Shown here: one piece after another, positions 5,885-49,571 of the stretch
How the letters are laid out: each line of letters starts with the position of its first letter
How positions within the stretch are numbered: position 1 is the stretch's first letter
Source of the DNA: Diplonema papillatum
Taxonomy: Eukaryota > Euglenozoa > Diplonemea > Diplonemida > Diplonemidae
Assembly: GCA_030068145.1 (NCBI GenBank)
Contig: JAPJBO010000009.1
Coordinates: 186,001 to 250,000 of the forward strand
Reading direction: 5' to 3'
DNA: 64,000 bases
Position numbers and translations under genes: made by a program
The notes under the pieces: model-generated
What the model was told of the DNA's origin: nothing
The model's database searches: none
What the model saw: the letters and a program-made list of their open reading frames with translations, nothing else

Positions 5885-8419
<2,535 letters not shown>

Positions 8420-22485: not shown

Positions 22486-22529
<44 letters not shown>

Positions 22530-22602
22530 GTTAGTGGGTGAACAATCCAACCCTTAGACAATTCTGCTTGTCTAGGTTAGGAAGAGCCGACATCGAAGGA
22601 GC
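22413..22602 (-). rRNA. LSU (25S/28S-type) rRNA fragment near the sarcin-ricin loop
   Basis: On the minus strand the order is CTCCTTCGATGTCGGCTCTT, GTTGGATTGTTCACCCACTA, GGGAACGTGAGCTGGGTTTA, GACCGTCGTGAGACAGGTTG, TTTTACCCTACTGATGG and, after a diverged stretch, GTAGTACGAGAGGAACTC. These are universal eukaryotic LSU segments in the right order. The sequence on both sides is not recognisable as rRNA and the segment sits in an intron, so it is an inserted fragment and not a working rDNA unit. Confidence 0.8.
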
Positions 22603-25935: not shown

Positions 25936-27400
25936 AGGAAGTTTCGACGCTAATCTTCGACTCTTGATTATGTTCACCGGGTTTTGAGTCAACGATGCAT
26001 TGTTAACAAAAAGTAGGAGAAAGTAGAAAGGGAAACTAAAGTTTTCGTTGACCGCACTAGAAGAAGAAAGCGGACGGAACGTCCACCCCAGGGTAGTGCG
26101 GTCAACGAAAAACAGTATGTCGTTCGAACGAACCTTGTGAAGTCCCCTAACGCGTTTAGGGGGTGTTTGGAATTGGGTAGGGAGTGGTCGTTCTGCTGCG
26201 GCGTGAAAAGCCAGGAAGTTTCGACGCTAATCTTCGACTCTTGATTATGTTCACCGGGTTTTGAGTCAACGATGCATTGTTCACAAAAAGTAGGAGAAAG
26301 TAGAAAGGGAAACTAAAGTTTTCGTTGACCGCACTAGAAGAAGAAAGCGGACGGAACGTCCACCCCAGGGTAGTGCGGTCAACGAAAAACAGTATGTCGT
26401 TCGAACGAACCTTGTGAAGTCCCCTAACGCGTTTAGGGGGTGTTTGGAATTGGGTAGGGAGTGGTCGTTCTGCTGCGGCGTGAAAAGCCAGGAAGTTTCG
26501 ACGCTAATCTTCGACTCTTGATTATGTTCACCGGGTTTTGAGTCAACAATGCATTGTTAACAAAAAGTAGGAGAAAGTAGAAAGGGAAACTAAAGTTTTC
26601 GTTGACCGCACTAGAAGAAGAAAGCGGACGGAACGTCCACCCCAGGGTAGTGCGGTCAACGAAAAACAGTATGTCGTTCGAACGAACCTTGTGAAGTCCC
26701 CTAACGCGTTTAGGGGGTGTTTGGAATTGGGTAGGGAGTGGTCGTTCTGCTGCGGCGTGAAAAGCCAGGAAGTTTCGACGCTAATCTTCGACTCTTGATT
26801 ATGTTCACCGGGTTTTGAGTCAACAATGCATTGTTAACAAAAAGTAGGAGAAAGTAGAAAGGGAAACTAAAGTTTTCGTTGACCGCACTAGAAGAAGAAA
26901 GCGGACGGAACGTCCACCCCAGGGTAGTGCGGTCAACGAAAAACAGTATGTCGTTCGAACGAACCTTGTGAAGTCCCCTAACGCGTTTAGGGGGTGTTTG
27001 GAATTGGGTAGGGAGTGGTCGTTCTGCTGCGGCGTGAAAAGCCAGGAAGTTTCGACGCTAATCTTCGACTCTTGATTATGTTCACCGGGTTTTGAGTCAA
27101 CAATGCATTGTTCACAAAAAGTAGGAGAAAGTAGAAAGGGAAACTAAAGTTTTCGTTGACCGCACTAGAAGAAGAAAGCGGACGGAACGTCCTGTGAAGT
27201 CCCCTAACGCGTTTAGGGGGTGTTTGGAATTGGGTAGGGAGTGGTCGTTCTGCTACGGCGTGAAAAGCCAGGAAGTTTCGACGCTAATCTTCGACTCTTG
27301 ATTATGTTCACCGGGTTTTGAGTCAACCATGCATTGTTAACAAAAAGTAGGAGAAAGTAGAAAGGGAAACTAAAGTTTTCGTTGACCGCACTAGAAGAAG
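25861..27400. repeat. 277-bp tandem repeat, about 5.5 copies, each with a strong hairpin
   Basis: TGAAGTCCCCTAACGCGTTT starts at 25861, 26138, 26415, 26692 and 26969, an exact 277-bp period, and at 27195 after a 51-bp deletion. Each full unit contains TTTTCGTTGACCGCACTA and, about 34 nt on, its reverse complement TAGTGCGGTCAACGAAAA. The copies are nearly identical. Confidence 0.95.
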
Positions 27401-27968
27401 TGTGAAAACGGGTTTTTGCCTAGAGGCTTTTCGTGTTATTCTGCAGATGCTTTGGGCTATCTTTGTGTCTATGCTTTCAGTTGTCTTCTTAACCATGGTT
27501 AAGTGCGCAAATGGTGTCAGCCGAAGCTGGTAAAGCTTCGGCGCCGCCCACGTTATGTTTGTTTAGCATTGAGTTCTTTTAAGTACATGAACCACATGGA
27601 TTAGCATGCACTGTTTAGCAGCGGCTGCCAAACATCCCGTGACACCGCGCGAGGTGGTAGAACGCTCGTTTATTTTCTTCTCGATTGCTTTTGATGGGGC
27701 ATGCAGGCCTGAAATGCAAGAATGGAAAGGAGACGGGGGAAAAAAAAAAAAAAAAAAAGAAGAAAGCGGACGGAACGTCCACCCCAGGGTAGTGCGGTCA
27801 ACGAAAAACAGTATGTCGTTCGAACGAACTGAGGCGGTCGCCCTCGTAAGAAGGTGACGGCCTACTTGGGCTCAGTTTCTTCACACATTGCATGTGGCTA
27901 AAAAAATATGCCTTCGCTCTTTGGGAGGTCACATTTTTACCTTACCGGGAAAATTTCCCACTGGAACC
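27401..27968. other. Repeat remnants, no gene recognised
   Basis: 27565-27612 (TTGAGTTCTTTTAAGTACAT, GAACCACATGGATTAGCATG) is identical to 59543-59586. 27755-27830 repeats the hairpin part of the 277-bp unit after an A run. 27925-27960 (GGGAGGTCACATTTTTACCT) is the reverse complement of 55285-55325. Confidence 0.55.
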
Positions 27969-30900
27969 AGGGGGGAAAATCTTAGTTTCGTGTTCAGGCG
28001 CTACTTGCCTCTAAGTGTTTGATGCTAGCATCAAGTCTTCTTCGCGGAATGCAGAGTCTTTTTTCTTCTTTTTTTCTTTTTTTCCGTTTTCTGTTTTTTC
28101 TGTTCTTTCTTTCGTTGTCGCCAATTTCTTTTTTCTCCTTTTACTTCTAATTTTAACTTTAATTTTCTTTACCATGGTATTTTTGGACTTTCTGGTGCCG
28201 TAGAGTAGTTCTTCTTTCTCTATGCCGCCCACGTCGATGTTCGTTTAGCAGCGGCTGCCGAATCATGCCGTGGCACCGTCCTTTTGTGCGTCTGCCTTGC
28301 TGAAGAAGTGTGGGAAAGGAGTCCAGGACTCCGTGGTTTGAAACCATGTGCTATGGCTTCACTTCCTCCTCCCTTCGTCCGTTTTTCTTTAAAAAAAGGG
28401 GGTTTACAAATTGGGTTGTGGCTCGTAACCAACCGCCACGGGGCACTACTTCCACCAGGTGAAAGTGTTTACGCTTTCTCGAGAGAGATGACGTAGCCAT
28501 TGGTTGTGAATCTCCTGGCACATTCCTCCCATGAGAGTACGGATACTTGCTGGTCGTCGTAGCATACCCATTCATCGTCTTCCTTTAACACGGTATAGTA
28601 ATGACCTGCCGTTGCTCTTCCGGTGTGGATAATGAAGCCTTTTACCGTGTAGGAGTCTTCACCGATCAGTATGGTTTGTCGGATCGGGGTGCGGGCTGGT
28701 ATTTTTATTTCTTCGCGTGTTTTTTTCGATAGCTGTGCTCGTTGCAGTAGTACATCCATTTGCTTTGGAAATGTGTAATCTTCCTTCGTGGATCCAACGG
28801 TCTTTTTGTTACAGGTGCTACAGGGGAAGTCGTCCACTTTGGTTGCTCTCTTGTTTTGCACTTTCTTTATCAGATCCTCAACTGACTCGGTGTAGGGCTT
28901 CTCCCTGTTTTTGAGTTCAAGCATCAGGAACGGTTCTGACGCCGGCGATGCTCGTGAAGACTCTTTGCATATTGTGCACGTTGTCAAACGGGAGTATGTC
29001 ACCGTAGCTTGGTCGTCGTCGTCGCCCGTCACGCAGGAGCGTATCCACGTCAGCAGTTCGTGCACGTCCCGATGCGCGGAGTCGTCTGCCGTCGTGTTGA
29101 ACACGAGGCTCCGGAGTGTGGCCATTGTACCGTGGATGTTTTGGCCTGCGTCGAAATCCGTGAACAGCCTCTGCACCATCTGCTGGTTGGTGTCCAGGTG
29201 CGTTAGGTTTGCGAGTTGTAGTCGGAAGGACGTCCTTCGCGCCAGGAACTGCACGCTGGCGGCGAAGAAACATGAGTTGCGAATGTTCGTTATGCCGTTG
29301 CGTCCAGGTGGGTTTGTTGGTTTCGTCGCAGGGTGCGTAGTGCTGGTGGGTTCGGATTTGTGCGGCGACGTAGACTGCGGCGAGGTTCTCCCGGGTGGAT
29401 GTTTCGGTGAGCCGTCGGGCGGTTGCGGCGTGCGGATGCTGATGTACGATTTTTCCTCGTTGGTCGGGCGACCTTCGTCATAGGCCTTTCCGACGAAGTG
29501 GTAAAACCGTGACAGCACTCGCGCATCTAATTCGTACTTTCCGTACGTTTGTGCCACGAACGTGTCGAACGTGCGCCGGAGTTCCCGTCCAGAGAATCCT
29601 CGGTTCCGAAGTCTGTAGTACACCTTCATGACCTCGACCTTCAGATCTGGCATGTTGTTGCAGATGCGCGCTGCTCGGATCAGTGCGCCTTTGAAGATCG
29701 AGGTTCCGGTGTTTCGTGGTACCGTGGATTCGACGTGGGTGTACTTTATCGGATTCCAGGGGAATTCCTCACCCTTGTCCAGGACAGACATCCGAATGAA
29801 GTCCGTCTTGTCATTCCTCTCCATCCGGATCCGCATCCCCAAAAAGACTACGTCGTCGACACCTTTCGACGTTTCACCATACTCCATGCCGTAGATATCT
29901 TCCGGCGGTGGTCGAACACCCCAGGTCAGGAAGTCGTCAATGAATCTGACGCTGTCGGCGTGATTCCTGGCCTCTTCTTGCAATCCTTTCGCGACCAGGC
30001 CGTCGATGTACTGCTTTTCGCACCAGTAGCAGTATAAGTTGGCGAGGTCTGGGCTTGCATTGCCGCCCATGGGGATTCCGGATACCTGCTGGTAGCATGT
30101 TCCACCGTTGGTGACGAAGGTGTTACCAACAATGAAGCTGACCAGTGCTCGAATCTCTTCGACATTGTAGGAGGTCGTGTTCGATTCGTCTGGTTTCCCA
30201 AATTCGAAGCGGTGTTTGGCGCGCTGGGCTTCTACGTTCGCTCCTTTTTCGGACTTCATGTACTCGAAAGCCTCTGCAACCGCAGACATAACATAGTCAA
30301 CAATCTGCTTCTGCGGAATCTTCGTGTACATCTCTTTGAAGTCGAAGGTTCGTGGCGCTTTTTTGCGCAGTCGAGCGTAGTTCGTCTTTATGTGTACTGC
30401 TACGTCATCGACCGACTCCACGACGAAGAAACGACGTATCCCCGTTTGCAAAAACGTCGCTTCGTCCTTGCTTCGGAGCGTTGCTAGCACCAGCTTCAGC
30501 AAACCGGAGGCTTCTTGGTGTGCAGGGGTTGTGGATGCACGTGTCTTCATTCGTTTCTTGTCGCGGCCTTTTTCGTCTCGGTCCTTCTGTTCGTCTTTCT
30601 TCTCAACGTTTCCTTTCTCCGACACGCCGGCAATGTACCGCATCCGTGGTTCGGGTTTGTGGAGCTTCGGGATGCCGTAAAGGTACGGTAGGTTGTCGGT
30701 GTGTACGAACTTGTGTGACTTGTTGAAGTCACGGTGTCGTTCGAGCACGTCATCAATCGACTCGCCAACTTCCTGGTACGTTGAACTCTGTTGTAATTCG
30801 TCCCGTAAGAGCTCCTTGTATTTTTCCTTGCAGATAAACCCGAAGTCATGGGACGTCTTATCTACAGGGAGAAACACGAGGTGCTCCTGGAGCTTCTTCA

Positions 30901-33818
30901 GGGTGCGTAAGGCGTCTCGGAGTTGAGGTTCGTCGGTGTGCGCGTTGAGAGTTCCAAGGACGGCGTCGAACTCTTCGACCAGAGTTGTTGAAAATCTGGT
31001 CTTCTCGTCCTCGCTCGCCTTCGGGAAATTCGAGTTCACGAATTCTTCGACGTCGTGTCTTATCGAGTCGTACATAGTCATCGGACTACTCGCGACCCGG
31101 TATTTTCGTCCTTTTCGAAAAAGTGAAAGGAGGGCTTCGTCAGTCTTCAGATCCGTTGCAAGTCCTAAAGCGTGTCCACCAAGATCCGGGCGGTGTGGTG
31201 TCATATGCTGCATGCATGGGCAAACCGAACCTGAGCTAGTCGGTTGATTCGCTTCGTAACTTACTTCGGTGACGTTGCTGACGAGGGTTACCAAAGGTGG
31301 CTTCAGGCGGTTGCTCACCATGAGGTTTTTGAGGACGGCCGGGTTGGGGCACGTTTCGCGAACCCGTGCGCGTGACAGGACGCCGGCAATTGCTGTCCGG
31401 TCTTGTGCCGGGTGATGATGCGTCAGCTTGAAATACCGTCGTGGGGGGGCCGCCGGTTTCTCGGTTCTGTTGCGGATGCGCGCACTGAGGAGTCGTTCAA
31501 GGATTCGTACTTTGTCTGTGACGTCTTTTCCTTGAACGAAGGTTCTCAGCCACGTGCGTAGGCGGAGGGCGCGATTGGGATGCCATGTTGACATGTCGTA
31601 GGTTCCCAGTCGGTCCTGTGGGAGTGTCAACAGGTGGTCCAACTGTTTCCTCAACCCAGAACAGAAGCCCGGGGAGGTGTCAATGTGGAGTTCGTCGTTT
31701 TCCATGCGGTGCCAGACGCTGCCGTCGGTGCGTCGTTTGCGGAGGCGTTGCGGTGGACGTTGCCTCCTCTTCTTCTTTGCAGCCTTGTTGTTGACCCTCT
31801 CTCCCTGTCGCCGATTCGTCATGTTCAATGGCGGGTTTAGCCATTTGATCCAAAACTCTTCGATTGGGAGAGCCACGCGCGCGAAGTCAGCGGGCTGTGC
31901 GTACAGCCGTTCCGGAACATTCTGTATCGGACACGCGTAGAGCTTCCGGCCTCGCTTTCGTAATTGTTGCGATACACGGTTGCCCTTTGAGTTCCGATTT
32001 TCCCAGTGCTTGCTGTTTCGCACCTCGGCCGTCTTCGACGTCTGACCCACGTAGAGGACGGTGCCCCCTTCGTTCAGAAGTACGTAGATCACTCCCGTCG
32101 TGTTGTCGGCGACGTCGCTTCGGTCGGTTCCGCATTTGTTCCGCCCATTCGACACTTTTGTGCCGTATCGCTTCCAGAAGATTTCGATCGCGCTTTTTCT
32201 TCGGCTTCCGTGATCGTCGTCGTCGTCGTCAGGGTGGCGGCGCGTGTGGACAAAAGCGGCGAGGAAACGAGTGTCAGATTTGGGCCGGTTTGTTTTTTGT
32301 TTTCGCCGTTCTTTTCTGTTGGCGCGTGCACTTTTATTGTTTTTTTGGTTTTTTTGGTTTTTTTCGTTTTGTTTTTTTGCCTCAGAGTCACGTGGTCGTT
32401 CTTCCGATTTTTCTTGGCGGCGTTTTCGTGCTTGTGCTCTGGGTTTTTCTTTTTGCGGCCTCTTTTGTTCGCGCTCCTTTTGTCGATCGTTGTGAACCGG
32501 GTGGCTAGTCGTTCCACGGTTCCTCTGTTCTGGGGCTGCTTGGGGTCTGGAAAGACCTTTCTCGCAGGGCTTCTTTGTTTTGGGGGCCGCTTGGGGTCTG
32601 GGGTGACCTTTGTCGCAGCGTTTCTCTTCCTTTCCCTCTCTCCGTGTCGCTGGGAAACGACCAACAAGTTCAGGTCCTTCCTGGGAGTGGCGCTGTCGGA
32701 AAATAAGGCATTCGTCATCTGTCCGAATCGGATATCCGACGACTACCTTAGCGTCTGTTCCGTCGAGTTCATCATCAAAGTAGTTAACTTTCATGTTATC
32801 GGACTCGGTGGTGGTAGACGACGCAGCACTCCGCCTCGAATGGTTATGCTTCCTAGGCACTTTCAATGGCGATTTAGAGACGGGTGTGGGATTTTTTATT
32901 TTGGGTCTATCAACGTGTCGGGCTGACAGGTCCAAAAGCGGTCCTGCGGCGTTTTTTAGGGCCACACGGCAAGGGGCCATCGTGTGGTTACAACATCCAT
33001 GAGGTCGGTATCAGTTCGGGTCTCCGTCGTTGCCCGGGGTTCTGGTTTCCCTGGTCTTGCTGCACTGGTGTGGATGGCACCTGTGCTTTTCTGTACCCTT
33101 TTTAGTTGGGGTATTTTTGCTTAGAAAGGACCCTGGAGTTCGTCCGTTCGTCTTCTTCCTGTCAGTTGTGAATGGCTGCCCCGACAAGAGCCACTGACGG
33201 GGAGTTGGCTTGGGGCTCGCTCAAAGGTTGTTCTAAGCTGGGGGAAAAAGTGGGGCGCAGGAAGGTTGACAGCCTTCCTCTCTGACGCGGGGTTGCGGGG
33301 CGGGGGTAAAATAAAACTTTTACTTTGCATCGGGGCCGGTACCGTATGGCGCTCGAAAGTACTGTAGTGGTACCGGCCGCGGCCAACAAAGGGATGCGGG
33401 GTTTTGCTTCCGGCTATCAGTCCCTGTGCTGCAGAGAAGCTGGGACGTCACATTTTGCATCCGGTAGGCGGGACGGGGGTAGGCAGCTGAGTGCTTTGTT
33501 TTCCGTTTCGCCACCCGGAAGACTGTTCTTTGTTGGGAAATGAAGGAGGGAAGAGAATAACTGGCAATTGACCTTTTCCCGCGTAGACAACGCGGTCCTT
33601 TCCAAATCTCGCCTTGTTTTGGGAATTCGGAGGTGGGGTGTTGTCAGTTCGATGCTGTTTATTGGGCCGTTCTCCTGCCGGTGCTGCTTTACTGCAGTCG
33701 GCCAGAGTTTTCCTATCTTCGTAGGTTGTTGGGTATTCCCTTGTTTTTGGGGAACTGTTGTCTTCTCCATTGGAGAGCAGAGTAAGACCTGTGTCTTCAG
33801 AAGACCGGCATACTCCGT
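27969..33818 (-). mobile_element. Penelope-like retroelement, full unit (5850 bp)
   Basis: The unit is defined by the exact 5850-bp offset between 27969-29096 and 33819-34946, which are nearly identical (one substitution noticed). On the minus strand the order is a 5' leader of about 840 bp, one 1503-codon gene, and a 3' region of about 500 bp with a T/C-rich tract. A 5'-truncated copy lies directly upstream in the same orientation, the partial-tandem (pseudo-LTR) arrangement typical of Penelope-like elements. The element is co-oriented with the UNC93-like gene whose intron it occupies. The intact long frame suggests recent activity. Confidence 0.88.
28469..32980 (-). CDS. Penelope-like polyprotein: GIY-YIG endonuclease, reverse transcriptase, ubiquitin-specific protease
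   Basis: 1503 residues. 1-290: basic, low complexity. About 293-385: GIY-YIG nuclease (GVIYVLLNEGGTVLYVGQTS, ending EEFWIKWLNPPLN). About 390-690: linker with CPCMQH. About 690-1090: reverse transcriptase with DFKEMYTKI (motif A), SGIPMGGNASPDLANLY (motif B) and SVRFIDDFL (catalytic DD near 1012). About 1230-1503: C19 ubiquitin-specific protease with Cys box GITNIRNSCFFAASVQFLA (nucleophile C1237), a QDAHEF-like DVHELLTW, paired zinc-type CTIC and CSTC, and His box HTGRATAGHYYTV (H1460) with WVCYDD (D1475/D1476). An N-terminal GIY-YIG places it with Naiad/Chlamys-type Penelope-like elements. The protease fusion is in frame and complete, with no stop or splice needed, and recurs in the neighbouring truncated copy. 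The protease could remove ubiquitin from the element's own protein or from host factors. Confidence 0.9.
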   Translation of the reverse strand: MAPCRVALKNAAGPLLDLSARHVDRPKIKNPTPVSKSPLKVPRKHNHSRRSAASSTTTESDNMKVNYFDDELDGTDAKVVVGYPIRTDDECLIFRQRHSQEGPELVGRFPATRREGKEEKRCDKGHPRPQAAPKTKKPCEKGLSRPQAAPEQRNRGTTSHPVHNDRQKEREQKRPQKEKPRAQARKRRQEKSEERPRDSEAKKQNEKNQKNQKNNKSARANRKERRKQKTNRPKSDTRFLAAFVHTRRHPDDDDDDHGSRRKSAIEIFWKRYGTKVSNGRNKCGTDRSDVADNTTGVIYVLLNEGGTVLYVGQTSKTAEVRNSKHWENRNSKGNRVSQQLRKRGRKLYACPIQNVPERLYAQPADFARVALPIEEFWIKWLNPPLNMTNRRQGERVNNKAAKKKRRQRPPQRLRKRRTDGSVWHRMENDELHIDTSPGFCSGLRKQLDHLLTLPQDRLGTYDMSTWHPNRALRLRTWLRTFVQGKDVTDKVRILERLLSARIRNRTEKPAAPPRRYFKLTHHHPAQDRTAIAGVLSRARVRETCPNPAVLKNLMVSNRLKPPLVTLVSNVTEVSYEANQPTSSGSVCPCMQHMTPHRPDLGGHALGLATDLKTDEALLSLFRKGRKYRVASSPMTMYDSIRHDVEEFVNSNFPKASEDEKTRFSTTLVEEFDAVLGTLNAHTDEPQLRDALRTLKKLQEHLVFLPVDKTSHDFGFICKEKYKELLRDELQQSSTYQEVGESIDDVLERHRDFNKSHKFVHTDNLPYLYGIPKLHKPEPRMRYIAGVSEKGNVEKKDEQKDRDEKGRDKKRMKTRASTTPAHQEASGLLKLVLATLRSKDEATFLQTGIRRFFVVESVDDVAVHIKTNYARLRKKAPRTFDFKEMYTKIPQKQIVDYVMSAVAEAFEYMKSEKGANVEAQRAKHRFEFGKPDESNTTSYNVEEIRALVSFIVGNTFVTNGGTCYQQVSGIPMGGNASPDLANLYCYWCEKQYIDGLVAKGLQEEARNHADSVRFIDDFLTWGVRPPPEDIYGMEYGETSKGVDDVVFLGMRIRMERNDKTDFIRMSVLDKGEEFPWNPIKYTHVESTVPRNTGTSIFKGALIRAARICNNMPDLKVEVMKVYYRLRNRGFSGRELRRTFDTFVAQTYGKYELDARVLSRFYHFVGKAYDEGRPTNEEKSYISIRTPQPPDGSPKHPPGRTSPQSTSPHKSEPTSTTHPATKPTNPPGRNGITNIRNSCFFAASVQFLARRTSFRLQLANLTHLDTNQQMVQRLFTDFDAGQNIHGTMATLRSLVFNTTADDSAHRDVHELLTWIRSCVTGDDDDQATVTYSRLTTCTICKESSRASPASEPFLMLELKNREKPYTESVEDLIKKVQNKRATKVDDFPCSTCNKKTVGSTKEDYTFPKQMDVLLQRAQLSKKTREEIKIPARTPIRQTILIGEDSYTVKGFIIHTGRATAGHYYTVLKEDDEWVCYDDQQVSVLSWEECARRFTTNGYVISLEKA

Positions 33819-34946
33819 AGGGGGGAAAATCTTAGTTTCGTGTTCAGGCGCTACTTGCCTCTAAGTGTTTGATGCTAGCATCAAGTCTTCTTCGCGGAAT
33901 GCAGAGTCTTTTTTCTTCTTTTTTTCTTTTTTTCCGTTTTCTGTTTTTTCTGTTCTTTCTTTCGTTGTCGCCAATTTCTTTTTTCTCCTTTTACTTCTAA
34001 TTTTAACTTTAATTTTCTTTACCATGGTATTTTTGGACTTTCTGGTGCCGTAGAGTAGTTCTTCTTTCTCTATGCCGCCCACGTCGATGTTCGTTTAGCA
34101 GCGGCTGCCGAATCATGCCGTGGCACCGTCCTTTTGTGCGTCTGCCTTGCTGAAGAAGTGTGGGAAAGGAGTCCAGGACTCCGTGGTTTGAAACCATGTG
34201 CTATGGCTTCACTTCCTCCTCCCTTCGTCCGTTTTTCTTTAAAAAAAGGGGGTTTACAAATTGGGTTGTGGCTCGTAACCAACCGCCACGGGGCACTACT
34301 TCCACCAGGTGAAAGTGTTTACGCTTTCTCGAGAGAGATGACGTAGCCATTGGTTGTGAATCTCCTGGCACATTCCTCCCATGAGAGTACGGATACTTGC
34401 TGGTCGTCGTAGCATACCCATTCATCGTCTTCCTTTACCACGGTATAGTAATGACCTGCCGTTGCTCTTCCGGTGTGGATAATGAAGCCTTTTACCGTGT
34501 AGGAGTCTTCACCGATCAGTATGGTTTGTCGGATCGGGGTGCGGGCTGGTATTTTTATTTCTTCGCGTGTTTTTTTCGATAGCTGTGCTCGTTGCAGTAG
34601 TACATCCATTTGCTTTGGAAATGTGTAATCTTCCTTCGTGGATCCAACGGTCTTTTTGTTACAGGTGCTACAGGGGAAGTCGTCCACTTTGGTTGCTCTC
34701 TTGTTTTGCACTTTCTTTATCAGATCCTCAACTGACTCGGTGTAGGGCTTCTCCCTGTTTTTGAGTTCAAGCATCAGGAACGGTTCTGACGCCGGCGATG
34801 CTCGTGAAGACTCTTTGCATATTGTGCACGTTGTCAAACGGGAGTATGTCACCGTAGCTTGGTCGTCGTCGTCGCCCGTCACGCAGGAGCGTATCCACGT
34901 CAGCAGTTCGTGCACGTCCCGATGCGCGGAGTCGTCTGCCGTCGTG
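33819..34946 (-). mobile_element. 5'-truncated Penelope-like copy (pseudo-LTR), 1128 bp
   Basis: Nearly identical to 27969-29096. It retains the last 198 codons (34319-34915), covering the QDAHEF-like and His boxes of the protease, plus the whole 3' region. One coding change was noticed (TVL to TVV next to the His box). It is cut at its 5' side at a run of 13 G. Its 3' end abuts the full element's 5' end at 33818/33819, so it may supply that element's promoter. Confidence 0.9.
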
Positions 34947-35228
34947 GGGGGGGGGGGGTACCGCTGCCACCTTTTATAATTTTGAAGGCGCGGGCAATTA
35001 TTTCCCCCCAGCCTGTACGTACACCCAGGTTCGATTCCCTTCCAAGCTCTTTTCCGCAGGCAAAACTACAGCATCGTTCTCCGAAAGTTTGATCAAAAAT
35101 CCTCAAAAATCTTCTTTAAAAGATGGGGGGGTTCGGGGGGCGCAGCCCCCCGCCCAAACGGTACGGTACTAACAACCTAACAGGGCTTGTCTGGGCTTAT
35201 ACGTCTTGTAGAGTACCCGGCGGAGAAA
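34947..35228. other. No gene; B-box-like motif and GC hairpin
   Basis: Contains GGTTCGATTCCC (35028-35039), a good Pol III B-box match, with no credible A box or tRNA fold around it. GGGGGGCGCAGCCCCCC follows near 35139. The first satellite array begins after GTACCCGGCGGAGAAA. Confidence 0.4.
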
Positions 35229-38178
35229 CCCCCATCAATGAGAAGGTGTTTCCACCGCATTTTGAGGTGTCCCCATCAATGGTAAAGTGTTTCCACCGCA
35301 TTTTGAGGTGACCCCATCAAGGGAAAAGTGTTTCCACCGCATTTTGAGGTGTCCCCATCAAGGGTAAAGTGTTTCCACCGCATTTTGAGGTGTCCCCATC
35401 AATGGTAAGGTGTTTCCACCGCATTTTGAGGTGTCCCCATCAATGGTAAGGTGTTTCCACCGCATTTTGAGGTGTCCCCATCAAGGGTAAAGTGTTTCCA
35501 CCGCATTTTGAGGTGTCCCCATCAAGGGTAAGGTGTTTCCACCGCATTTTGAGGTGTCCCCATCCGTGGTAAAGTGTTTCCACCACGTTTTGAGGTGTCC
35601 CCATCAAGGGTAAGGTGTTTCCACCGCATTTTGAGGTGTCCCCATCAATGGTAAGGTGTTTCCGCCGCATTTTGAGGTGTCCCCATCAAGGGTAAAGTGT
35701 TTCCACCGCATTTTGAGGTGTCCCCATCAATGGTAAGGTGTTTCCACCACGTTTTGAGGTGTCCCCATCAAGGGTAAAGTGTTTCCACCGCATTTTGAGG
35801 TGTCCCCATCAAGGGTAAGGTGTTTCCACCGCATTTTGAGGTGTCCCCATCAAGGGTAAGGTGTTTCCACCGCATTTTGAGGTGTCCCCATCAAGGGTAA
35901 AGTGTTTCCACCGCATTTTGAGGTGTCCCCATCAAGGGTAAGGTGTTTCCACCGCATTTTGAGGTGTCCCCATCAAGGGTAAAGTGTTTCCACCGCATTT
36001 TGAGGTGTCCCCATCAAGGGTAAAGTGTTTCCACCGCATTTTGAGGTGTCCCCATCAAGGGTAAAGTGTTTCCACCACGTTTTGAGGTGTCCCCATCAAG
36101 GGTAAAGTGTTTCCACCGCATTTTGAGGTGTCCCCATCAAGGGTAAGGTGTTTCCACCGCATTTTGAGGTGTCCCCATCAATGGTAAGGTGTTTCCACCG
36201 CATTTTGAGGTGTCCCCATCAAGGGTAAAGTGTTTCCACCACGTTTTGAGGTGTCCCCATCAAGGGTAAGGTGTTTCCACCGCATTTTGAGGTGTCCCCA
36301 TCAATGGTAAGGTGTTTCCACCGCATTTTGAGGTGTCCCCATCAAGGGTAAGGTGTTTCCACCGCATTTTGAGGTGTCCCCATCAATGGTAAGGTGTTTC
36401 CACCGCATTTTGAGGTGTCCCCATCAAGGGTAAGGTGTTTCCACCGCATTTTGAGGTGTCCCCATCAAGGGTAAAGTGTTTCCACCGCATTTTGAGGTGT
36501 CCCCATCAAGGGTAAAGTGTTTCCACCGCATTTTGAGGTGTCCCCATCAAGGGTAAAGTGTTTCCACCGCATTTTGAGGTGTCCCCATCAAGGGTAAGGT
36601 GTTTCCACCGCATTTTGAGGTGTCCCCATCAATGGTAAGGTGTTTCCACCGCATTTTGAGGTGTCCCCATCAAGGGTAAAGTGTTTCCACCGCATTTTGA
36701 GGTGTCCCCATCAATGGTAAGGTGTTTCCACCGCATTTTGAGGTGTCCCCATCAAGGGTAAAGTGTTTCCACCGCATTTTGAGGTGTCCCCATCAATGGT
36801 AAGGTGTTTCCACCGCATTTTGAGGTGTCCCCATCAATGGTAAAGTGTTTCCACCGCGTTTTGAGGTGTCCCCATCAAGGGTAAGGTGTTTCCACCGCAT
36901 TTTGAGGTGTCCCCATCAATGGTAAGGTGTTTCCACCGCATTTTGAGGTGTCCCCATCAAGGGTAAAGTGTTTCCACCGCATTTTGAGGTGTCCCCATCA
37001 ATGGTAAGGTGTTTCCACCACGTTTTGAGGTGTCCCCATCAAGGGTAAAGTGTTTCCACCGCATTTTGAGGTGTCCCCATCAAGGGTAAGGTGTTTCCAC
37101 CGCATTTTGAGGTGTCCCCATCAATGGTAAGGTGTTTCCACCGCATTTTGAGGTGTCCCCATCAAGGGTAAAGTGTTTCCACCGCATTTTGAGGTGTCCC
37201 CATCAATGGTAAGGTGTTTCCACCGCATTTTGAGGTGTCCCCATCAAGGGTAAAGTGTTTCCACCGCATTTTGAGGTGTCCCCATCAAGGGTAAAGTGTT
37301 TCCACCGCATTTTGAGGTGTCCCCATCAAGGGTAAAGTGTTTCCACCGCATTTTGAGGTGTCCCCATCAAGGGTAAAGTGTTTCCACCGCATTTTGAGGT
37401 GTCCCCATCAAGGGTAAGGTGTTTCCACCGCATTTTGAGGTGTCCCCATCAATGGTAAGGTGTTTCCACCGCATTTTGAGGTGTCCCCATCAATGGTAAA
37501 GTGTTTCCACCACGTTTTGAGGTGTCCCCATCAAGGGTAAAGTGTTTCCACCGCATTTTGAGGTGTCCCCATCAATGGTAAGGTGTTTCCACCGCATTTT
37601 GAGGTGTCCCCATCAAGGGTAAAGTGTTTCCACCGCATTTTGAGGTGTCCCCATCAATGGTAAGGTGTTTCCACCGCGTTTTGAGGTGTCCCCATCAAGG
37701 GTAAAGTGTTTCCACCGCATTTTGAGGTGTCCCCATCAAGGGTAAAGTGTTTCCACCGCATTTTGAGGTGTCCCCATCAAGGGTAAAGTGTTTCCACCGC
37801 ATTTTGAGGTGTCCCCATCAAGGGTAAAGTGTTTCCACCGCATTTTGAGGTGTCCCCATCAAGGGTAAGGTGTTTCCACCGCATTTTGAGGTGTCCCCAT
37901 CAAGGGTAAGGTGTTTCCACCGCATTTTGAGGTGTCCCCATCAAGGGTAAGGTGTTTCCACCGCATTTTGAGGTGTCCCCATCAAGGGTAAGGTGTTTCC
38001 ACCGCGTTTTGAGGTGTCCCCATCAAGGGTAAGGTGTTTCCACCGCATTTTGAGGTGTCCCCATCAATGGTAAGGTGTTTCCACCGCATTTTGAGGTGTC
38101 CCCATCAAGGGTAAATTGTTTCCACCGCATTTTGAGGTGTCCCCATCAAGGGTAAGGTGTTTCCACCACGTTTTGAGG
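35229..38178 (-). repeat. 41-bp satellite, array 1 (about 72 copies)
   Basis: Exact 41-bp period. On the minus strand each unit holds GATGGGGACACCTCAAAATG and CGGTGGAAACACTTTACCC. Variable positions are CTTTACCC/CCTTACCC, CCCTTG/CCATTG and AATGCG/AACGTG. Frames inside it are artefacts of the period. It ends where the tyrosine-recombinase element is inserted at 38179. Confidence 0.97.
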
Positions 38179-38671
38179 AGTTTCTGCTCTTCGTATTGTC
38201 TGACGAGAACTGCCTAGAAGAGCTTCTGCTCTTCGTATTGTCTGACGAGAACTGCTTAGGAAAAAGGGAGAAGTAAGAACACGTCTTTGTAACTGATAGC
38301 ACTAGCGCAAGGGAATGTTGAGTGACTGCCTTAACCCGGGGAAACGAGCTTGGGCGAGGTCACCGGGGGGTTAGGGAGGGTGGGAAAACTTGAATTTCTC
38401 TTTGAACCAACCACACCCTGAAGGCTGTGTTAAGTTCTCTAATCGACTTTTCGTGGTGCATCAACTCCCTCAGTGAAACTGTGAGAGTTTCTGCTCTTCG
38501 TATTGTCTGACGAGAACTGCCTAGAAGAGCTTCTGCTCTTCGTATTGTCTGACGAGAACTGCTTAGGAGAAAGGGAGAAGTAAGAACACGTCTTTGTAAC
38601 TGATAGCACTAGCGCAAGGGAATGTTGAGTGACTGCCTTAACCCGGGGAAACGAGCTTGGGCGAGGTCACC
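38179..38671 (-). repeat. B1-A2-B2 split direct repeats of the minus copy
   Basis: B1 38486-38671 (186 bp), A2 38385-38485 (101 bp), B2 38179-38364 (186 bp). Each B contains the block CAGTTCTCGTCAGACAATAC then GAAGAGCAGAA twice. The B1-A2 junction GAAACT|CTCACAG equals the sequence expected when the element's two ends are joined in a circle. Confidence 0.93.
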
Positions 38672-41657
38672 TTCCATCCACCACAACGCCAGTGAGAAAC
38701 TGCCTCACCGCAAGTACAATTGAATCGAGCGCATCAGCGCCAATCATGGTCAGCGGTACGCGTGACGGCAAGTCCGCAGGGTTGCCCTCACTCCTGACCC
38801 ATCGTACAGAAACAGCGCAGTTCAAGGAACGCACGCGTTCCAGTCCTTTAACTACCGCCTCGTTCAAGACGGCACTTTTCAAACAGGACCCCTTACGGGC
38901 CACTCCTTTCACAGTGGTATTATCAACCACAATGTCCACTCTCCCACCTCTAATCGAGGGCGGCAGAGCCAAGACAACTAACTTGAAGGCAATAGCCTCC
39001 AGCTCGTTTATGTGCAACGAGCTCTCTGCAGAGTTCCATGACCCACCCAACACGGTCACTTCCATTGTGCGCGAGTCAACAAGGACACCCCCCCAGCCTT
39101 TCTTACTCGCGTCCACGAAGGCCGTGATACGTGGGGACTGTTCGAGAGTGGGAACGGCCCTCGGCTTCAGCACCGAGTCAATCCACTCTTGGAGCGACAA
39201 ACGAACACACGGAGAAACTTCAACTCTATCAGAGGGCAGCCGAGCCCCTCGGTTCAACGAGTTGGTTATGCGTCGAAAGAACTTCAACGCAAACCAAAAC
39301 GAGCCCGGAAAAATGCCGGCGACCGCAGAGGCATGCAATAAACGGCCGCCGAGAGTCTCGAGCTCGCACGCCAGCACGGTGGGCGACGACTTCAGCGTGT
39401 AGCGCGCCTCCATCAGCTTTCTTCGCAACTTCCGTGAGACAGCCACACGATGAGCAACGTGGTCCCAATCGACCCCGATGAACTCATACCGTGTGGCGGC
39501 AGTCTGCGAATCGGACGGCTTCCACGTCAGGCCGCACTCCTCCGCGGTCAGGTCCAGCCTCCGAGTCGCGAGCCGCACAGCCGGCTTCTTGCCCGCATAC
39601 CGGATGTTGTCGATCCAAATGTCGACGATGACATCCCGTTCCGCAAACTCCGGACGCACGAAGTCCTCATGTCCGCCGGCCACCGCTGCCAAGGTGTGCA
39701 TTAACTCCGGTGCACACGAGTGTCCCATGGGAAGCCGCAGAAGTTCCCACCAACCACCATCGGAGTCAGCGAACCTGAAGAGATGACGCGACTCCGGCGG
39801 GATCTCAATGGCGTAAAAACCCGTCTTGAAATCCCGGGTTGAGCCACACTCCTCGCGGCTCGCCCCGAGGTAGCCGGAAACGTGTCCGAGGGGCACAGAT
39901 GCTTCGTAACCCGCCTCTTGAGCGGCTCGGTTACCGTCCACCGTCCACAAGATGAAGCGCTGACGCAGCGCCCCTTCCTTCTCCTCCAGCACTGTGAAAG
40001 GGACTGAAGCGAACGGACCGGGACCGGTTGAACTGCGGGCAATCCCGTTTTCCGCGAGCAAAGATGCATGGTCGGGACGAAGGGTCGAGGGGGACCCGAT
40101 TGCCGTCTCCGTCTCGACACGGGGAAAGAACGTTGAACGCCACGTATCGTCAAAACGTCGGAGGGTTGCCTCGTTCATCCGCGCACGAAGCTTCGCGACA
40201 GACATCGGCTTGATCGGCGCGACATGCAATGGCGAAGCGCGCTCCTCCTTGCTTCGCGGCAGCCGCGTCGAACCGCCTCGTCGGGTGACGGAGTGGAATT
40301 GACCACTGCGGAGGTATCCCGTCACAAGTGCTTCGTCACCTTGCCGGTCTCGAGTGCCCTGGCAAGGTCCACGTCGCCCCCGGCGTACCGGAGTGTGGTC
40401 CTCGACAGCGTTCCGGGTCCGCCCTCCTCCTCGTGCTTCGTCAGCCGGTCGATGAGGTGCGGCGACAGCTTGCCGCTGGTCAGCAACGGCAAGAGGTGCT
40501 TCACCGCTCCGCGTTTGATGGAGTGCGCGGTGTACCCCTGCATCTGCGTCGACTGGCCCCACAGAGCGTCCAGTGCCGACGTTGTCAACGCCGACAGCGG
40601 AGCGAAGGGTGCACACTTCGCGTACAGAACGGCGATTTCCGCCGTCAACGGTCCCTGGATGACCGCAAACCGCGACGCCTTGAACGGATCCTGCGTCCGC
40701 CCCTTCGGCGTCTGGAACCAGTCCACGATGACCTCCTTCTGCGTCACCAGGAGGAACTGCACTGACGAAAGATTCGCCGCCTCCGCCCAACGCGAAGCCG
40801 TCTTCCACGCGACCAGAACCGCCAGACGAACGGACGACTGCTGCTGCCTGGCCCAAGACACAAGCTTCCGCCTCTCGATTGGCGTCGCCTGGTTCTCCGG
40901 GATAGCCGCCCCACCCCCGCGCAAGGCCTTGGCCAAGACCCGCAGGGGGTGGTTCTCGAACCCCATTGCCCCAAACGAGGCCGACAGGGCCTTGGTGTAG
41001 GCAAGCTGTCCCTGGGGCCGGACACCCGTTGCCGCCACGAACAGGCATGCCGAGTCCGCGTTCATCCCAAGTCCACGTTCTGTCGTCCATGCCTGCAGCC
41101 GCCGCCACAGGCTTCGACGCTCCTGCGTGGTCGACCGGGCCCACATGTCCGCCACGACCGCCGACATCTTCGTACGAGCCATCTCCACGGTACTCGCACC
41201 CTCCTGTGTCCGACCGGTACGGCTCGTGCCTCCAGACGAAATGAGGCGGTAGACTGCCATGCCTATCTCCGATGTCGGCATCCCTTCGGTTCCCGGCAAC
41301 GGCGGCGCACAGGTTGGTCGCAGTGACGATGAGGTCGTTGACGGCCGTGAGGAGCTGCAAGCTCGAACCCACATCATTGGCCGGGTCGGTGTTGGTGGCA
41401 GCATCGACGCCTCGGTTGTGCGTGCCAACGGGGGATGAAGATCTACTTGGTGTGTAGGCATGGGAATCGGCGGGGAGACGAACTTTTGAACGGGTGGGGA
41501 GTGCGTCGGAAAGACATTCGACGGAGGGAGGAACTTCATTCGCACGGGAGGTGAGTGGGTCGACGCGACGGTGGAACGAGGGAGGAACTTCATCCGCGCG
41601 AGCTGTTGTTGCATTGGAACTGGCTGTTGAAGCCTGGGCCGGGTGGGTGCCAGTCAT
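38667..41657 (-). CDS. Reverse transcriptase-RNase H, minus copy
   Basis: 996-residue frame. The first 445 residues overlap the recombinase gene in another frame and are low-complexity, so real translation may begin later or by reinitiation. RT motifs: DFKTGFYAIEIP (D609), LPMGHSCAPELM and VDIWIDNIRYAG (D683, N684). RNase H follows: FVDASKKGWGG (D849), INELEAIAF (E885), VDIVVDNTTVKG (D912) and NPADLPSRV (D962). The second aspartate of the usual YxDD box is Asn. The start overlaps the stop of ORF1 as ATGA. Differences from the plus copy include Arg for Ile and Pro for Ser. Confidence 0.88.
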   Translation of the reverse strand: MTGTHPAQASTASSNATTARADEVPPSFHRRVDPLTSRANEVPPSVECLSDALPTRSKVRLPADSHAYTPSRSSSPVGTHNRGVDAATNTDPANDVGSSLQLLTAVNDLIVTATNLCAAVAGNRRDADIGDRHGSLPPHFVWRHEPYRSDTGGCEYRGDGSYEDVGGRGGHVGPVDHAGASKPVAAAAGMDDRTWTWDERGLGMPVRGGNGCPAPGTACLHQGPVGLVWGNGVREPPPAGLGQGLARGWGGYPGEPGDANREAEACVLGQAAAVVRSSGGSGRVEDGFALGGGGESFVSAVPPGDAEGGHRGLVPDAEGADAGSVQGVAVCGHPGTVDGGNRRSVREVCTLRSAVGVDNVGTGRSVGPVDADAGVHRALHQTRSGEAPLAVADQRQAVAAPHRPADEARGGGRTRNAVEDHTPVRRGRRGPCQGTRDRQGDEALVTGYLRSGQFHSVTRRGGSTRLPRSKEERASPLHVAPIKPMSVAKLRARMNEATLRRFDDTWRSTFFPRVETETAIGSPSTLRPDHASLLAENGIARSSTGPGPFASVPFTVLEEKEGALRQRFILWTVDGNRAAQEAGYEASVPLGHVSGYLGASREECGSTRDFKTGFYAIEIPPESRHLFRFADSDGGWWELLRLPMGHSCAPELMHTLAAVAGGHEDFVRPEFAERDVIVDIWIDNIRYAGKKPAVRLATRRLDLTAEECGLTWKPSDSQTAATRYEFIGVDWDHVAHRVAVSRKLRRKLMEARYTLKSSPTVLACELETLGGRLLHASAVAGIFPGSFWFALKFFRRITNSLNRGARLPSDRVEVSPCVRLSLQEWIDSVLKPRAVPTLEQSPRITAFVDASKKGWGGVLVDSRTMEVTVLGGSWNSAESSLHINELEAIAFKLVVLALPPSIRGGRVDIVVDNTTVKGVARKGSCLKSAVLNEAVVKGLERVRSLNCAVSVRWVRSEGNPADLPSRVPLTMIGADALDSIVLAVRQFLTGVVVDGR
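40322..41614 (-). CDS. Tyrosine recombinase, minus copy
   Basis: 430 residues. The N-terminal 130 are Pro/Ser/Thr-rich with a repeated MKFLPPS..THSPPV motif. The catalytic set is R275 (TASRWAEAANL), K304 (FQTPKGRT), H364 (AHSIKRGAVKHL), H394 (TKHEEE) and Y410 (TTLRYAGG). The HxxR box reads HxxK followed by Arg. It would cut and rejoin DNA to integrate the circular cDNA, fitting the absence of target duplications. It is in the same frame as ORF1, 39 nt past its stop. It differs from the plus copy at one residue (Asp for Tyr in HQVDLHPP). Confidence 0.9.
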   Translation of the reverse strand: MQQQLARMKFLPRSTVASTHSPPVRMKFLPPSNVFPTHSPPVQKFVSPPIPMPTHQVDLHPPLARTTEASMLPPTPTRPMMWVRACSSSRPSTTSSSLRPTCAPPLPGTEGMPTSEIGMAVYRLISSGGTSRTGRTQEGASTVEMARTKMSAVVADMWARSTTQERRSLWRRLQAWTTERGLGMNADSACLFVAATGVRPQGQLAYTKALSASFGAMGFENHPLRVLAKALRGGGAAIPENQATPIERRKLVSWARQQQSSVRLAVLVAWKTASRWAEAANLSSVQFLLVTQKEVIVDWFQTPKGRTQDPFKASRFAVIQGPLTAEIAVLYAKCAPFAPLSALTTSALDALWGQSTQMQGYTAHSIKRGAVKHLLPLLTSGKLSPHLIDRLTKHEEEGGPGTLSRTTLRYAGGDVDLARALETGKVTKHL

Positions 41658-42817
41658 TTCCCGCCGGCCTTTCCGTTTCCCGGCTGCCTCGGCCTGAAGG
41701 CCGGCTTCTTCGTCGGACCCCTCTCCTTCTTGCCGCGCAGAACCGCGGCGGCCTTGTCCAACGGGTCCTCAGCCTGAGACCCGATTTGTCGGAGGAGGTC
41801 CCGACGGCTCATCCCCTCCTCCACGTACAGCTTCTGAAGCCGGAGTTGTTTCAGAAGCTCATTTCCCAGCCTCAGCTGGTCGGGGCTGCGCGTCCATCCC
41901 TCGGTGGCCGACATGGCCAACATCCAGCATCGGAGCATGCCGAACGTGCTGTCGAGCTGCTCGCCACCCGGAAGGTGAGCCCTCCCACACACGTAAGCCG
42001 ATTCGACGTCCCGGATCAAACCCCACGGGTCCAGGAGCAGGGGCTCCCGCCACTCTCGGACGTCCTTGGCGTCCTTCGCGAACACCCTGGGGGCAACGTC
42101 TTCTTCCTCTTCCTGCCGCCCGTCAGACTCCATTGGCTGCGGCGCTGGCTGCGCGGTCGCTGACACTGACGCTACCGCGGGCGACGGCTGGTGCGAAATG
42201 CCCATCAGCTGCGTCTGCATCTGCTGCAGCACCTGCATCATGTGCGCTTGTTGCTGTTGTTGCGCCCGCATTTCCCGCTGCTGCGCCTGCATCTGCTCCT
42301 GCTGCTGCATGACCATCCGCTGCAGCTGGTCCTGCATCGATGCGCCCGCGGATGCCGTCACCGGAGGCGCCACCGACGCAGACGGGACCGCTGCAGAGGG
42401 AACAGACGCAGAAGAAACCGGCTGCCCCGCTCCGCTACCCTCGACCGGGGCCTGGATAAGACTCGCCAGTGAAGGCGGGGGTACATCAAATTTTCCGACA
42501 ATCTTCTTAACAGCTAGTGACACGCGAGCTTCGTCCTCCTCATACACGAGCATTAGGATCGCCAAGACCCGCTGCAGATCCAAACCCGCCACCTCAAGTA
42601 TCGTGGCGCCGATCGCCTCGGCGAGTACCGCGCGGGCCCTGTCTGTGACGGCCTCTTCGCATGTGCCGAATAACGTGGAGCAGAAAGACTCCATTTCACG
42701 CACGCGGAACTTCCTTTTGGAAGGTGGCTCATAGGCAAAGGATCGAGTCCAGGCCTCGCGGAGCACAGAAGGGAACCTGTAGTCCCACCTGTCGGCATTC
42801 GGCAGCGGCGAAGACAT
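41654..42817 (-). CDS. ORF1, Gag-like protein, minus copy
   Basis: 387 residues from ATG 42817 (MSSPLPNADRWDYRF), four bases after the A1 repeat ends. The middle (about 161-205) is a Gln/Met-rich probable coiled coil (MQQQEQMQAQQREMRAQQQQ). The C terminus is basic (KKERGPTKKPAFRPRQPG). There is no CCHC knuckle. The position fits a structural Gag-like protein. The stop overlaps the next start (ATGA, 41657-41654). Confidence 0.75.
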   Translation of the reverse strand: MSSPLPNADRWDYRFPSVLREAWTRSFAYEPPSKRKFRVREMESFCSTLFGTCEEAVTDRARAVLAEAIGATILEVAGLDLQRVLAILMLVYEEDEARVSLAVKKIVGKFDVPPPSLASLIQAPVEGSGAGQPVSSASVPSAAVPSASVAPPVTASAGASMQDQLQRMVMQQQEQMQAQQREMRAQQQQQAHMMQVLQQMQTQLMGISHQPSPAVASVSATAQPAPQPMESDGRQEEEEDVAPRVFAKDAKDVREWREPLLLDPWGLIRDVESAYVCGRAHLPGGEQLDSTFGMLRCWMLAMSATEGWTRSPDQLRLGNELLKQLRLQKLYVEEGMSRRDLLRQIGSQAEDPLDKAAAVLRGKKERGPTKKPAFRPRQPGNGKAGGK

Positions 42818-42921
42818 GGAAAAACTTGAATTTCTCTTTGAACCAACCACACCCTGAAGGCTGTGTTAAGTTCTCTAATCGACTTTTCGTGGTGCATCAA
42901 CTCCCTCAGTGAAACTGTGAG

Positions 42922-43745
42922 TGTCCCCATCAAGGGTAAGTTGTTTCCACCACGTTTTGAGGTGTCCCCATCAAGGGTAAGGTGTTTCCACCGCATTTTG
43001 AGGTGTCCCCATCAAGGGTAAGGTGTTTCCACCGCATTTTGAGGTGTCCCCATCAAGGGTAAAGTGTTTCCACCGCATTTTGAGGTGTCCCCATCAATGG
43101 TAAGGTGTTTCCACCGCGTTTTGAGGTGTCCCCATCAAGGGTAAAGTGTTTCCACCGCATTTTGAGGTGTCCCCATCAAGGGTAAGGTGTTTCCACCGCA
43201 TTTTGAGGTGTCCCCATCAATGGTAAGGTGTTTCCACCGCATTTTGAGGTGTCCCCATCAAGGGTAAAGTGTTTCCACCGCATTTTGAGGTGTCCCCATC
43301 AAGGGTAAGGTGTTTCCACCGCATTTTGAGGTGTCCCCATCAAGGGTAAAGTGTTTCCACCGCATTTTGAGGTGTCCCCATCAAGGGTAAGGTGTTTCCA
43401 CCGCATTTTGAGGTGTCCCCATCAATGGTAAGGTGTTTCCACCGCATTTTGAGGTGTCCCCATCAAGGGTAAGGTGTTTCCACCGCATTTTGAGGTGTCC
43501 CCATCAATGGTAAGGTGTTTCCACCGCATTTTGAGGTGTCCCCATCAAGGGTAAAGTGTTTCCACCGCATTTTGAGGTGTCCCCATCAAGGGTAAGGTGT
43601 TTCCACCGCATTTTGAGGTGTCCCCATCAATGGTAAGGTGTTTCCACTACGTTTTGAGGTGTCCCCATCAAGGGTAAGGTGTTTCCACCACGTTTTGAGG
43701 TGTCCCCATCAAGGGTAAGTTGTTTCCACCACGTTTTGAGGTGTC
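42922..43745 (-). repeat. 41-bp satellite, array 2 (about 20 copies)
   Basis: Same orientation as array 1, resuming exactly where the retroelement ends. It stops at GAGGTGT next to a 56-bp non-satellite segment that precedes the DNA transposon. Confidence 0.96.
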
Positions 43746-48985: not shown

Positions 48986-49467
48986 TGATGGGGACACCTA
49001 AAATGCTGTGGAAACACTTTGCCCTTGATGGGGACACCTCAAAATGCGGTGGAAACACTTTACCCTTGATGGGGACACCTCAAAATGCGGTGGAAACACT
49101 TTACCCTTGATGGGGACACCTCAAAATGCGGTGGAAACACTTTACCCTTGATGGGGACACCTCAAAACGCGGTGGAAACACCTTACCATTGATGGGGACA
49201 CCTCAAAATGCGGTGGAAACACTTTACCCTTGATGGGGACACCTCAAAATGCGGTGGAAACACTTTACCCTTGATGGGGACACCTCAAAATGCGGTGGAA
49301 ACAATTTACCCTTGATGGGGACACCTCAAAATGCGGTGGAAACACTTTACCCTTGATGGGGACACCTCAAAATGCGGTGGAAACACTTTACCCTTGATGG
49401 GGACACCTCAAAATGCGGTGGAAACACTTTACCCTTGATGGGGACACCTCAAAACGTGGTGGAAACA
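48986..49467 (+). repeat. 41-bp satellite, array 4 (about 12 copies, inverted)
   Basis: Opposite orientation from array 3, starting TTGATGGGGACACCT. The first units have AATGCTGTGG and TTTGCCC variants. The last unit is interrupted after GGAAACA by the plus-strand retroelement. Confidence 0.95.
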
Positions 49468-49568: not shown

Positions 49569-49571
49569 TCC

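Follow-up and report, generated by a model that had tools for sequence, protein, structure and literature searches.

A Penelope-like retroelement of Diplonema papillatum with a C-terminal ubiquitin-specific protease domain in its single protein

Genomic locus and coding capacity of the element

The locus described here lies within a 64,000-nt stretch of the genome of Diplonema papillatum, a unicellular marine flagellate (GenBank assembly GCA_030068145.1, contig JAPJBO010000009.1, positions 186,001 to 250,000 of the forward strand). This stretch is referred to as the window, and positions are counted from its first letter. The minus strand of the window holds a full-length retroelement with one long open reading frame (ORF), directly abutted by a 5'-truncated copy (Table 1). 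The encoded protein carries a GIY-YIG endonuclease, a reverse transcriptase (RT) and a ubiquitin-specific protease (USP), in this order. With very high confidence, we identify the element as a Chlamys-like member of the Penelope-like retroelements with N-terminal endonuclease, in which the single protein ends in a USP domain.

A preliminary description, made from the letters of the window, had reported a 1503-residue frame at 28469-32980. This frame is present and lies on the minus strand; the description had stated no strand. The other five frames over the same interval contain 33, 34, 42, 45 and 53 stops, and at this stop density the chance probability of a 1503-codon frame is about 10^-18.

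Domains of the ORF were called by Pfam profile search and judged against the curated cut-offs, with matches listed at E <= 1. The GIY-YIG profile (PF01541) matches residues 296-383 above its cut-off (E 7.7e-6), and the endonuclease is thus N-terminal to the RT motifs at residues 766-1049. GIY-YIG-type motifs, GVIY and YVGQT, are followed by a CxC motif (CPC, residue 587) and then by the RT. The endonuclease segment 294-385 holds a single cysteine, as counted by eye. Chlamys elements are not known to have the CCHH motif found in other Penelope-like endonucleases.

The RT region contains YLYGIPKLHK (766), FDFKEMYTKIP (879), GIPMGG (968), RFIDDF (1012) and FLGM (1046), which we take to be RT motifs. 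The RVT_1 profile matches residues 874-1018 weakly (E 0.043, 13.9 bits vs a cut-off of 29.6), so that the RT assignment rests on the motifs and on the predicted fold. Residues 280-1178 were modelled from an alignment of 8 sequences; the structure model has a mean predicted local distance difference test score (pLDDT) of 61.5, with several core blocks at 80-91. Compared with the PDB, it yields 18 matches at E <= 0.001: telomerase TERT occupies ranks 1-15 and group II intron RTs ranks 16-18. Their whole-query template modelling (TM) scores are low (0.23-0.32). The fold matches are evidence of kind, not of detail, and suggest an RT related to telomerase. The spacing between the KLHK motif and motif A is 104 residues in two database proteins of D. 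papillatum (P0001 and P0007, see below) and 77-85 in three relatives, in a comparison restricted to these five proteins. An insertion-in-fingers domain is a feature of N-terminal-endonuclease Penelope-like elements (Naiad/Chlamys). With a two-row GIY-YIG/RT alignment as query, a PDB sequence search gave no match at E <= 1, and a scan of viral contigs gave 33 pattern matches with no confirmed relative among them.

The UCH profile spans the protease domain almost completely (profile positions 2-251 of 254) and exceeds its curated cut-off; the best sequence match in the PDB is USP15. Zinc-binding CxxC pairs are found at C1335/C1338 and C1387/C1390. With its Cys, His and Asp boxes and both zinc pairs, the domain is complete-looking and appears to be equipped as a working enzyme.

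The domain order had been anticipated by the preliminary description. Its Penelope-like reading with a Naiad/Chlamys-type N-terminal endonuclease is borne out by the GIY-YIG match ahead of the RT and the CPC motif, and C1237, H1460, D1475/D1476 and the two CxxC pairs agree with its account, within a domain whose UCH match is significant (E 3e-15). Its RT domain stands as regards motifs and TERT-like fold; the RVT_1 match stays below the cut-off.

Table 1 Features of the element in the window (P0007, database protein of a second subfamily of the element; residues refer to the 1503-aa ORF)
Feature	Position	Strand	Evidence or remark
Full-length Penelope-like element copy, 5850 bp	27969..33818	minus	Read 33818 -> 27969; bounded by two copies of a 1128-bp repeat
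Upstream 5'-truncated copy (pseudo-long terminal repeat), starting within the USP at ~residue 1295	33819..34946	minus	1127/1128 bp identical to 27969-29096
198-aa open USP remnant in truncated copy	34319..34915	minus	Pfam UCH E 6.7e-12
1503-aa ORF	28469..32980	minus	Start 32980, stop at 28469, one terminal stop
GIY-YIG endonuclease, residues 296-383	31832..32095	minus	Pfam PF01541 E 7.7e-6
CxC motif CPC, residues 587-589, between endonuclease and RT	31214..31222	minus	Sequence motif
RT region, residues 634-1160	29501..31081	minus	Motifs; TERT-like predicted fold; RVT_1 E 0.043, below cut-off
Pro/Ser/Thr-rich linker, residues 1161-1226	29303..29500	minus	33/63 identical to P0007, below flanking domains
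USP (UCH, C19), residues 1229-1497	28490..29296	minus	Pfam PF00443 E 3e-15; PDB USP15 E 4.2e-10
Catalytic Cys1237	29270..29272	minus	Also in P0007
Catalytic His1460	28601..28603	minus	Also in P0007
Asp1475/Asp1476, third catalytic position	28553..28558	minus	Also in P0007
Downstream pseudo-long terminal repeat: USP C-terminal part and 3' untranslated region of full copy	27969..29096	minus	1128-bp repeat
3'-terminal hairpin sequence ending in TTTTCCCCCCT	27969..28012	minus	~30 nt common to two short units within 8565-8672

Tandem arrangement, termini and insertion site

The two copies of the 1128-bp repeat are in direct orientation, differ by one mismatch and constitute the pseudo-long terminal repeat (pseudo-LTR) arrangement of Penelope-like elements. 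Since they differ at 1/1128 sites, the insertion is probably recent and the element young; the full copy seems to be intact. The truncated copy, which the preliminary description had already recognized as carrying an open protease part, is real. It starts inside the USP, at about residue 1295, and hence contains a protease fragment that is still open and matches UCH over a 198-codon frame.

Canonical Penelope/Poseidon elements carry a hammerhead ribozyme (PMC11167929). Naiad/Chlamys-type elements are not known to have a canonical one. In the region 26500-36000, Rfam gave no match of any kind at E <= 5. Five CTGANGA sites occur in the element, none with a clear hammerhead context by eye, and a hammerhead ribozyme was rejected.

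The predicted hairpin at the 3' terminus is not clearly more stable than shuffled sequences (z -0.84), and a loose pattern search for it returned mostly noise. Two short units at 8565-8700 (minus strand) match the 3' terminus of the element over ~30 nt, with 32/33 and ~27/31 identical positions. Each adjoins a poly-C run, and one has a different yet paired hairpin stem. These units could be tiny 5'-truncated copies or members of a non-autonomous family that uses the same RT. The 5' junction of the main insertion, the one insertion available, is a C13 run; together with the poly-C runs at the short units, this is a hint of poly-C targeting. An insertion bias towards microsatellites is a feature of Naiad/Chlamys-type elements. 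No clear target-site duplication is present at this one insertion, where the best shared words measure 3-4 nt. Just downstream of the element, a 36-column segment at 27613-27647 (minus strand) matches an internal part of its 3' untranslated region (89%, E 1.4e-5).

The assignment to the N-terminal-endonuclease Penelope-like elements is based on the pseudo-LTR tandem, the N-terminal GIY-YIG, the CxC motif, the TERT-like RT fold and the lack of a hammerhead match. Within this group, the element is probably placed near Chlamys.

The RT-USP fusion in other copies of D. papillatum

Three protein searches together retrieved 11 D. papillatum proteins (P0001-P0007 and P0009-P0012), which match the ORF at up to 100% identity. 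Two of the searches scored the best 7993 and 7994 candidates by word sharing, so weaker relatives may be missed; the third, with the USP as sole query, covered 944 candidates at word-based sensitivity and within a limited range of protein lengths. The longest contigs of the 11 proteins are all of different size. The RT-USP junction is crossed in 8 of the 11 (P0001, P0003, P0004, P0005, P0006, P0007, P0009, P0010), among them a subfamily that is only 74% identical to the ORF (P0007). This contradicts the two explanations that the preliminary description had named as fatal to its reading, namely a separate host exon and a chimaeric assembly confined to this copy. Among the remaining proteins, P0002 comprises GIY-YIG and RT followed by an 18-residue match in the USP, and P0011 and P0012 stop short of the USP.

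A complete USP is found in P0001 and P0007, which are also the largest clusters among those found, with 18 and 7 member sequences (one locus may be counted repeatedly). P0001 differs from the ORF at 3/870 residues. P0007, whose evidence is at the protein level and comes from a gene model, matches UCH with E 4.6e-18. Its identities to the ORF are 424/527 in the RT, 33/63 in the linker and 187/273 in the USP, the latter aligned from end to end with small gaps only. All eight USP positions examined (C1237, H1460, D1475/D1476, C1335/C1338, C1387/C1390) are kept in P0007. As the linker (52% identical) has changed more than the USP and the catalytic and zinc positions are all retained, this is the pattern expected if the USP is under constraint.

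The annotation of these copies is uneven. P0004, named UNC93-like protein 3, is a gene model of the present copy joined to sequence downstream of the element in the window. Of three P0004 peptides tested, two were located there on the minus strand, starting at 25459 and 24822; the third, which would span an exon junction, does not occur uninterrupted in the window. Judging from these matches and the protein identities of up to 100%, the window belongs to the D. papillatum genome or to one almost the same. More generally, the gene models P0002-P0006, P0009 and P0012 fuse parts of the element to apparent host sequence, some under names such as UNC93-like, dynein intermediate chain or STIP1-like. 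They are probably annotation chimaeras that spread misleading names. PF26215 appears in the precomputed Pfam labels of most D. papillatum matches and is absent from the Pfam scans made here. In the D. papillatum genome, repeats can yield over-long gene models and spurious introns (PMC10161547).

Relatives outside Diplonema

Five relatives from outside Diplonema were found (P0008, P0013, P0014, P0015, P0016), all of which share GVIY/YVGQT and CxC in aligned places. By Pfam, GIY-YIG is above the cut-off in P0015 only, weaker in P0013, P0014 and P0016, and without a match at E <= 0.5 in P0008. P0008, P0013 and P0014 align over both GIY-YIG and RT and end within ~15 residues of the RT end, at stop codons or contig ends. 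P0015 and P0016 do not extend to the RT core and are uninformative on a C-terminal domain. UCH was detected in none of the five at E <= 0.5, with only P0008, P0013 and P0014 reaching past the RT. No RT-USP protein from outside D. papillatum was found: within the sensitivity and length range of the USP-only search, 8/8 proteins returned were from D. papillatum. The simplest reading would be that the USP was acquired by capture within diplonemids.

Possible roles of the protease domain

The USP is likely to be functional, i.e. maintained by selection. The element would be copied by target-primed reverse transcription, the mechanism assumed for Penelope-like elements in general, with the USP travelling on the same polypeptide as the RT. 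Because the linker joins the two domains, the protease may act in cis. Acting locally, it would free the protein and ribonucleoprotein (RNP) of the element, or host factors bound to them, from ubiquitin, and the complex would be spared proteasomal removal long enough to integrate. That such cis-protection of the RNP is the main role of the USP is the likeliest of the proposals considered, and one to which we give somewhat less than an even chance. A wider proposal, in which a selected USP deubiquitinates the RNP or target chromatin and repair factors and is required for retrotransposition, host ubiquitination being a restriction layer overcome by domain capture, is put forward only tentatively.

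Several observations weigh against the cis-protection proposal. The USP is less conserved between the subfamilies than the RT (68% vs 80%), and its AlphaFold model, built from 3 sequences, is of poor quality, with a mean pLDDT of 46.1. Of the eight gene models that cross the junction, six (P0003, P0004, P0005, P0006, P0009, P0010) leave the frame of the element or end at ~1326-1334 and so do not reach the catalytic His; the BLAST alignment of P0003 extends to 1370, and true identity stops near 1334 by eye. The break in P0004 must be a predicted or real intron and not a genomic truncation, because in the DNA of this copy the reading frame remains open through the whole USP. Splicing might truly remove the catalytic His. 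Further, the GIY-YIG is missing from the models P0001, P0003 and P0007, whose first residue is Met634, and from P0004, which begins at Met636; P0002 and P0011 join it to the RT region, with GIY-YIG above the Pfam cut-off in both.

The USP might instead be a passenger domain that was captured once, remains open because the copies are young and has no part in retrotransposition. The near-identity of the pseudo-LTRs and of P0001 to the ORF means that openness within the subfamily proves little, and the C-terminal half of the USP is often missing from the gene models. Over the distance to P0007, however, a domain evolving neutrally should have lost its frame or active site, and there the USP is kept from end to end, more closely than the linker and with every catalytic and zinc position intact. 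Given this second subfamily, a neutral passenger is the less likely reading, and we consider it unlikely overall. A different possibility is that the USP acts at the target site, deubiquitinating histones or DNA-damage factors near the nick and thereby opening chromatin or steering repair for second-strand synthesis and joining. The authors of the Ginger study suggested that transposases may influence ubiquitin- and SUMO-regulated repair through their OTU and Ulp1 domains (PMC2836005), and the low-confidence model of the domain matches many USPs, including chromatin and repair deubiquitinases (Ubp8 in SAGA, USP1). Yet the domain is not assignable to a chromatin-acting branch: the 50 PDB matches listed for the model, all of them USP entries, cover many USPs, and the best sequence match is USP15. 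Because their query TM-scores are 0.22-0.33, these fold matches add little beyond the profile match. Nor does Pfam, at E <= 1, find a chromatin-reader domain in the ORF; the fragment in the truncated copy has a PHD_4 match that is not significant (E 0.35, below cut-off). A role at the target site is the main alternative to cis-protection and is regarded as rather doubtful, although less so than a passenger.

Many retroelement polyproteins are cut by a protease that they encode, and the USP might accordingly separate the endonuclease, the RT and itself. USPs, in contrast, cut after the C-terminal glycines of ubiquitin, and no ubiquitin-like domain is present in the ORF at E <= 1 (Pfam). Processing of the polyprotein was rejected on this ground and is highly improbable. 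The least credible explanation is that the join is an artefact of assembly or annotation, or a host USP gene beside a retroelement fragment. Repeats are known to disturb D. papillatum gene models (PMC10161547), and several of the gene models here resemble chimaeras with host genes. The join is nevertheless found in the raw DNA within one frame, and the truncated tandem copy contains the C-terminal part of the USP once more. An assembly artefact was rejected, as the junction occurs in proteins from contigs of different size and in the diverged subfamily.

Relation to known elements

The Naiad/Chlamys clade is defined by an N-terminal endonuclease, a CxC motif, pseudo-LTRs and the lack of a hammerhead. 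The present element resembles these elements in its GIY-YIG ahead of the RT, the intervening CxC, the pseudo-LTR tandem and the missing hammerhead match. Compared by such features, it differs in its C-terminal USP and its diplonemid host. Chlamys is in use as the name of a Penelope-like group and has been found in a brown alga (Ectocarpus repeat paper, PMC12477816). With canonical Penelope/Poseidon elements it shares a single ORF with RT and GIY-YIG, pseudo-LTRs and partial tandem copies; their endonuclease is C-terminal, in contrast to the N-terminal one here, and they carry a hammerhead, which was not found here (PMC11167929). The same tandem or partial-tandem structure is described for an active Penelope-like element (PMC11167929). 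Accessory enzymes of other types occur in Athena, a group of Penelope-like elements from rotifers (PMC6431247, PMC5408684), and rotifer Penelope elements can hold host genes between their pseudo-LTRs (PMC3846280).

Proteases for ubiquitin or ubiquitin-like modifiers are already known from other mobile elements. NeSL/Utopia non-LTR retrotransposons likewise encode such a protease in a retroelement protein, but it is Ulp1-like and N-terminal, in nematode long interspersed nuclear elements with a restriction-like endonuclease, as opposed to the C-terminal C19 USP here (PMC4640811). C-terminal deubiquitinase-type domains occur in Ginger1 (OTU or Ulp1) and in a Trichomonas transposase_11-C19 protein, the latter also of family C19; both are DNA transposases, not reverse transcriptases (PMC2836005). 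Helentrons have a deubiquitinase-type (OTU) protease as well, but they are rolling-circle DNA elements with the protease in a separate ORF and of another family (PMC4067079). Of a USP in a Penelope-like element we found no report among the papers listed by a literature search that did not cover Craig et al. 2021, the key paper on Penelope-like elements with an N-terminal endonuclease. In the main text of the D. papillatum genome paper, the words "Penelope" and "ubiquitin" do not occur (PMC10161547).

The element joins the pattern of Ginger, Helentron and NeSL/Utopia, in which proteases directed at ubiquitin or related modifiers are encoded by diverse mobile elements, and the combination of domains in its protein hints that it may resist or exploit the protein-tagging system of its host. 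Among eukaryotic retroelements, the Penelope-like class is still little understood, and the role of ubiquitin in retroelement control is hard to test genetically. A deubiquitinase fused to an RT would offer a clean handle, as the change of one cysteine would probe copying, protein stability and target choice. As far as the literature was searched, the element would also extend the N-terminal-nuclease Penelope-like elements to diplonemids, a group that counts among the marine microeukaryotes richest in species (PMC10161547).

Other features of the window

Further repeats are found in the window. The segments 37135-43425 and 48985-55232 form a 6.3-kb inverted duplicate (98.4% identical) with 41-bp tandem arrays. 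It encodes frames of 398 aa, 996 aa and an overlapping 430 aa; the 996-aa frame matches RT_RNaseH with E 3e-4, below the curated cut-off, and the 430-aa frame is tyrosine-recombinase-like by eye, with no Pfam match. The duplicate possibly represents two DIRS-like elements in opposite orientation. The 41-bp satellite is located at 35230-38178 (~72 copies) and 42921-43745 (~20 copies), with 95-96% matches, and adjoins the retroelements.

A fragment of eukaryotic large-subunit rRNA is located at 22490-22599 on the minus strand (Rfam E 1e-35), in agreement with the scattered 28S pieces known in D. papillatum (PMC10161547). Two long frames are also encoded on the minus strand. In the 859-aa frame at 425-3001, a match to FtsJ-like methyltransferases (4e-7) is accompanied by an internal array of short, almost identical repeats in which Q, E, G, S and T abound. 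The 844-aa frame at 5885-8419 includes a polyglutamine tract considerably longer than 100 residues.

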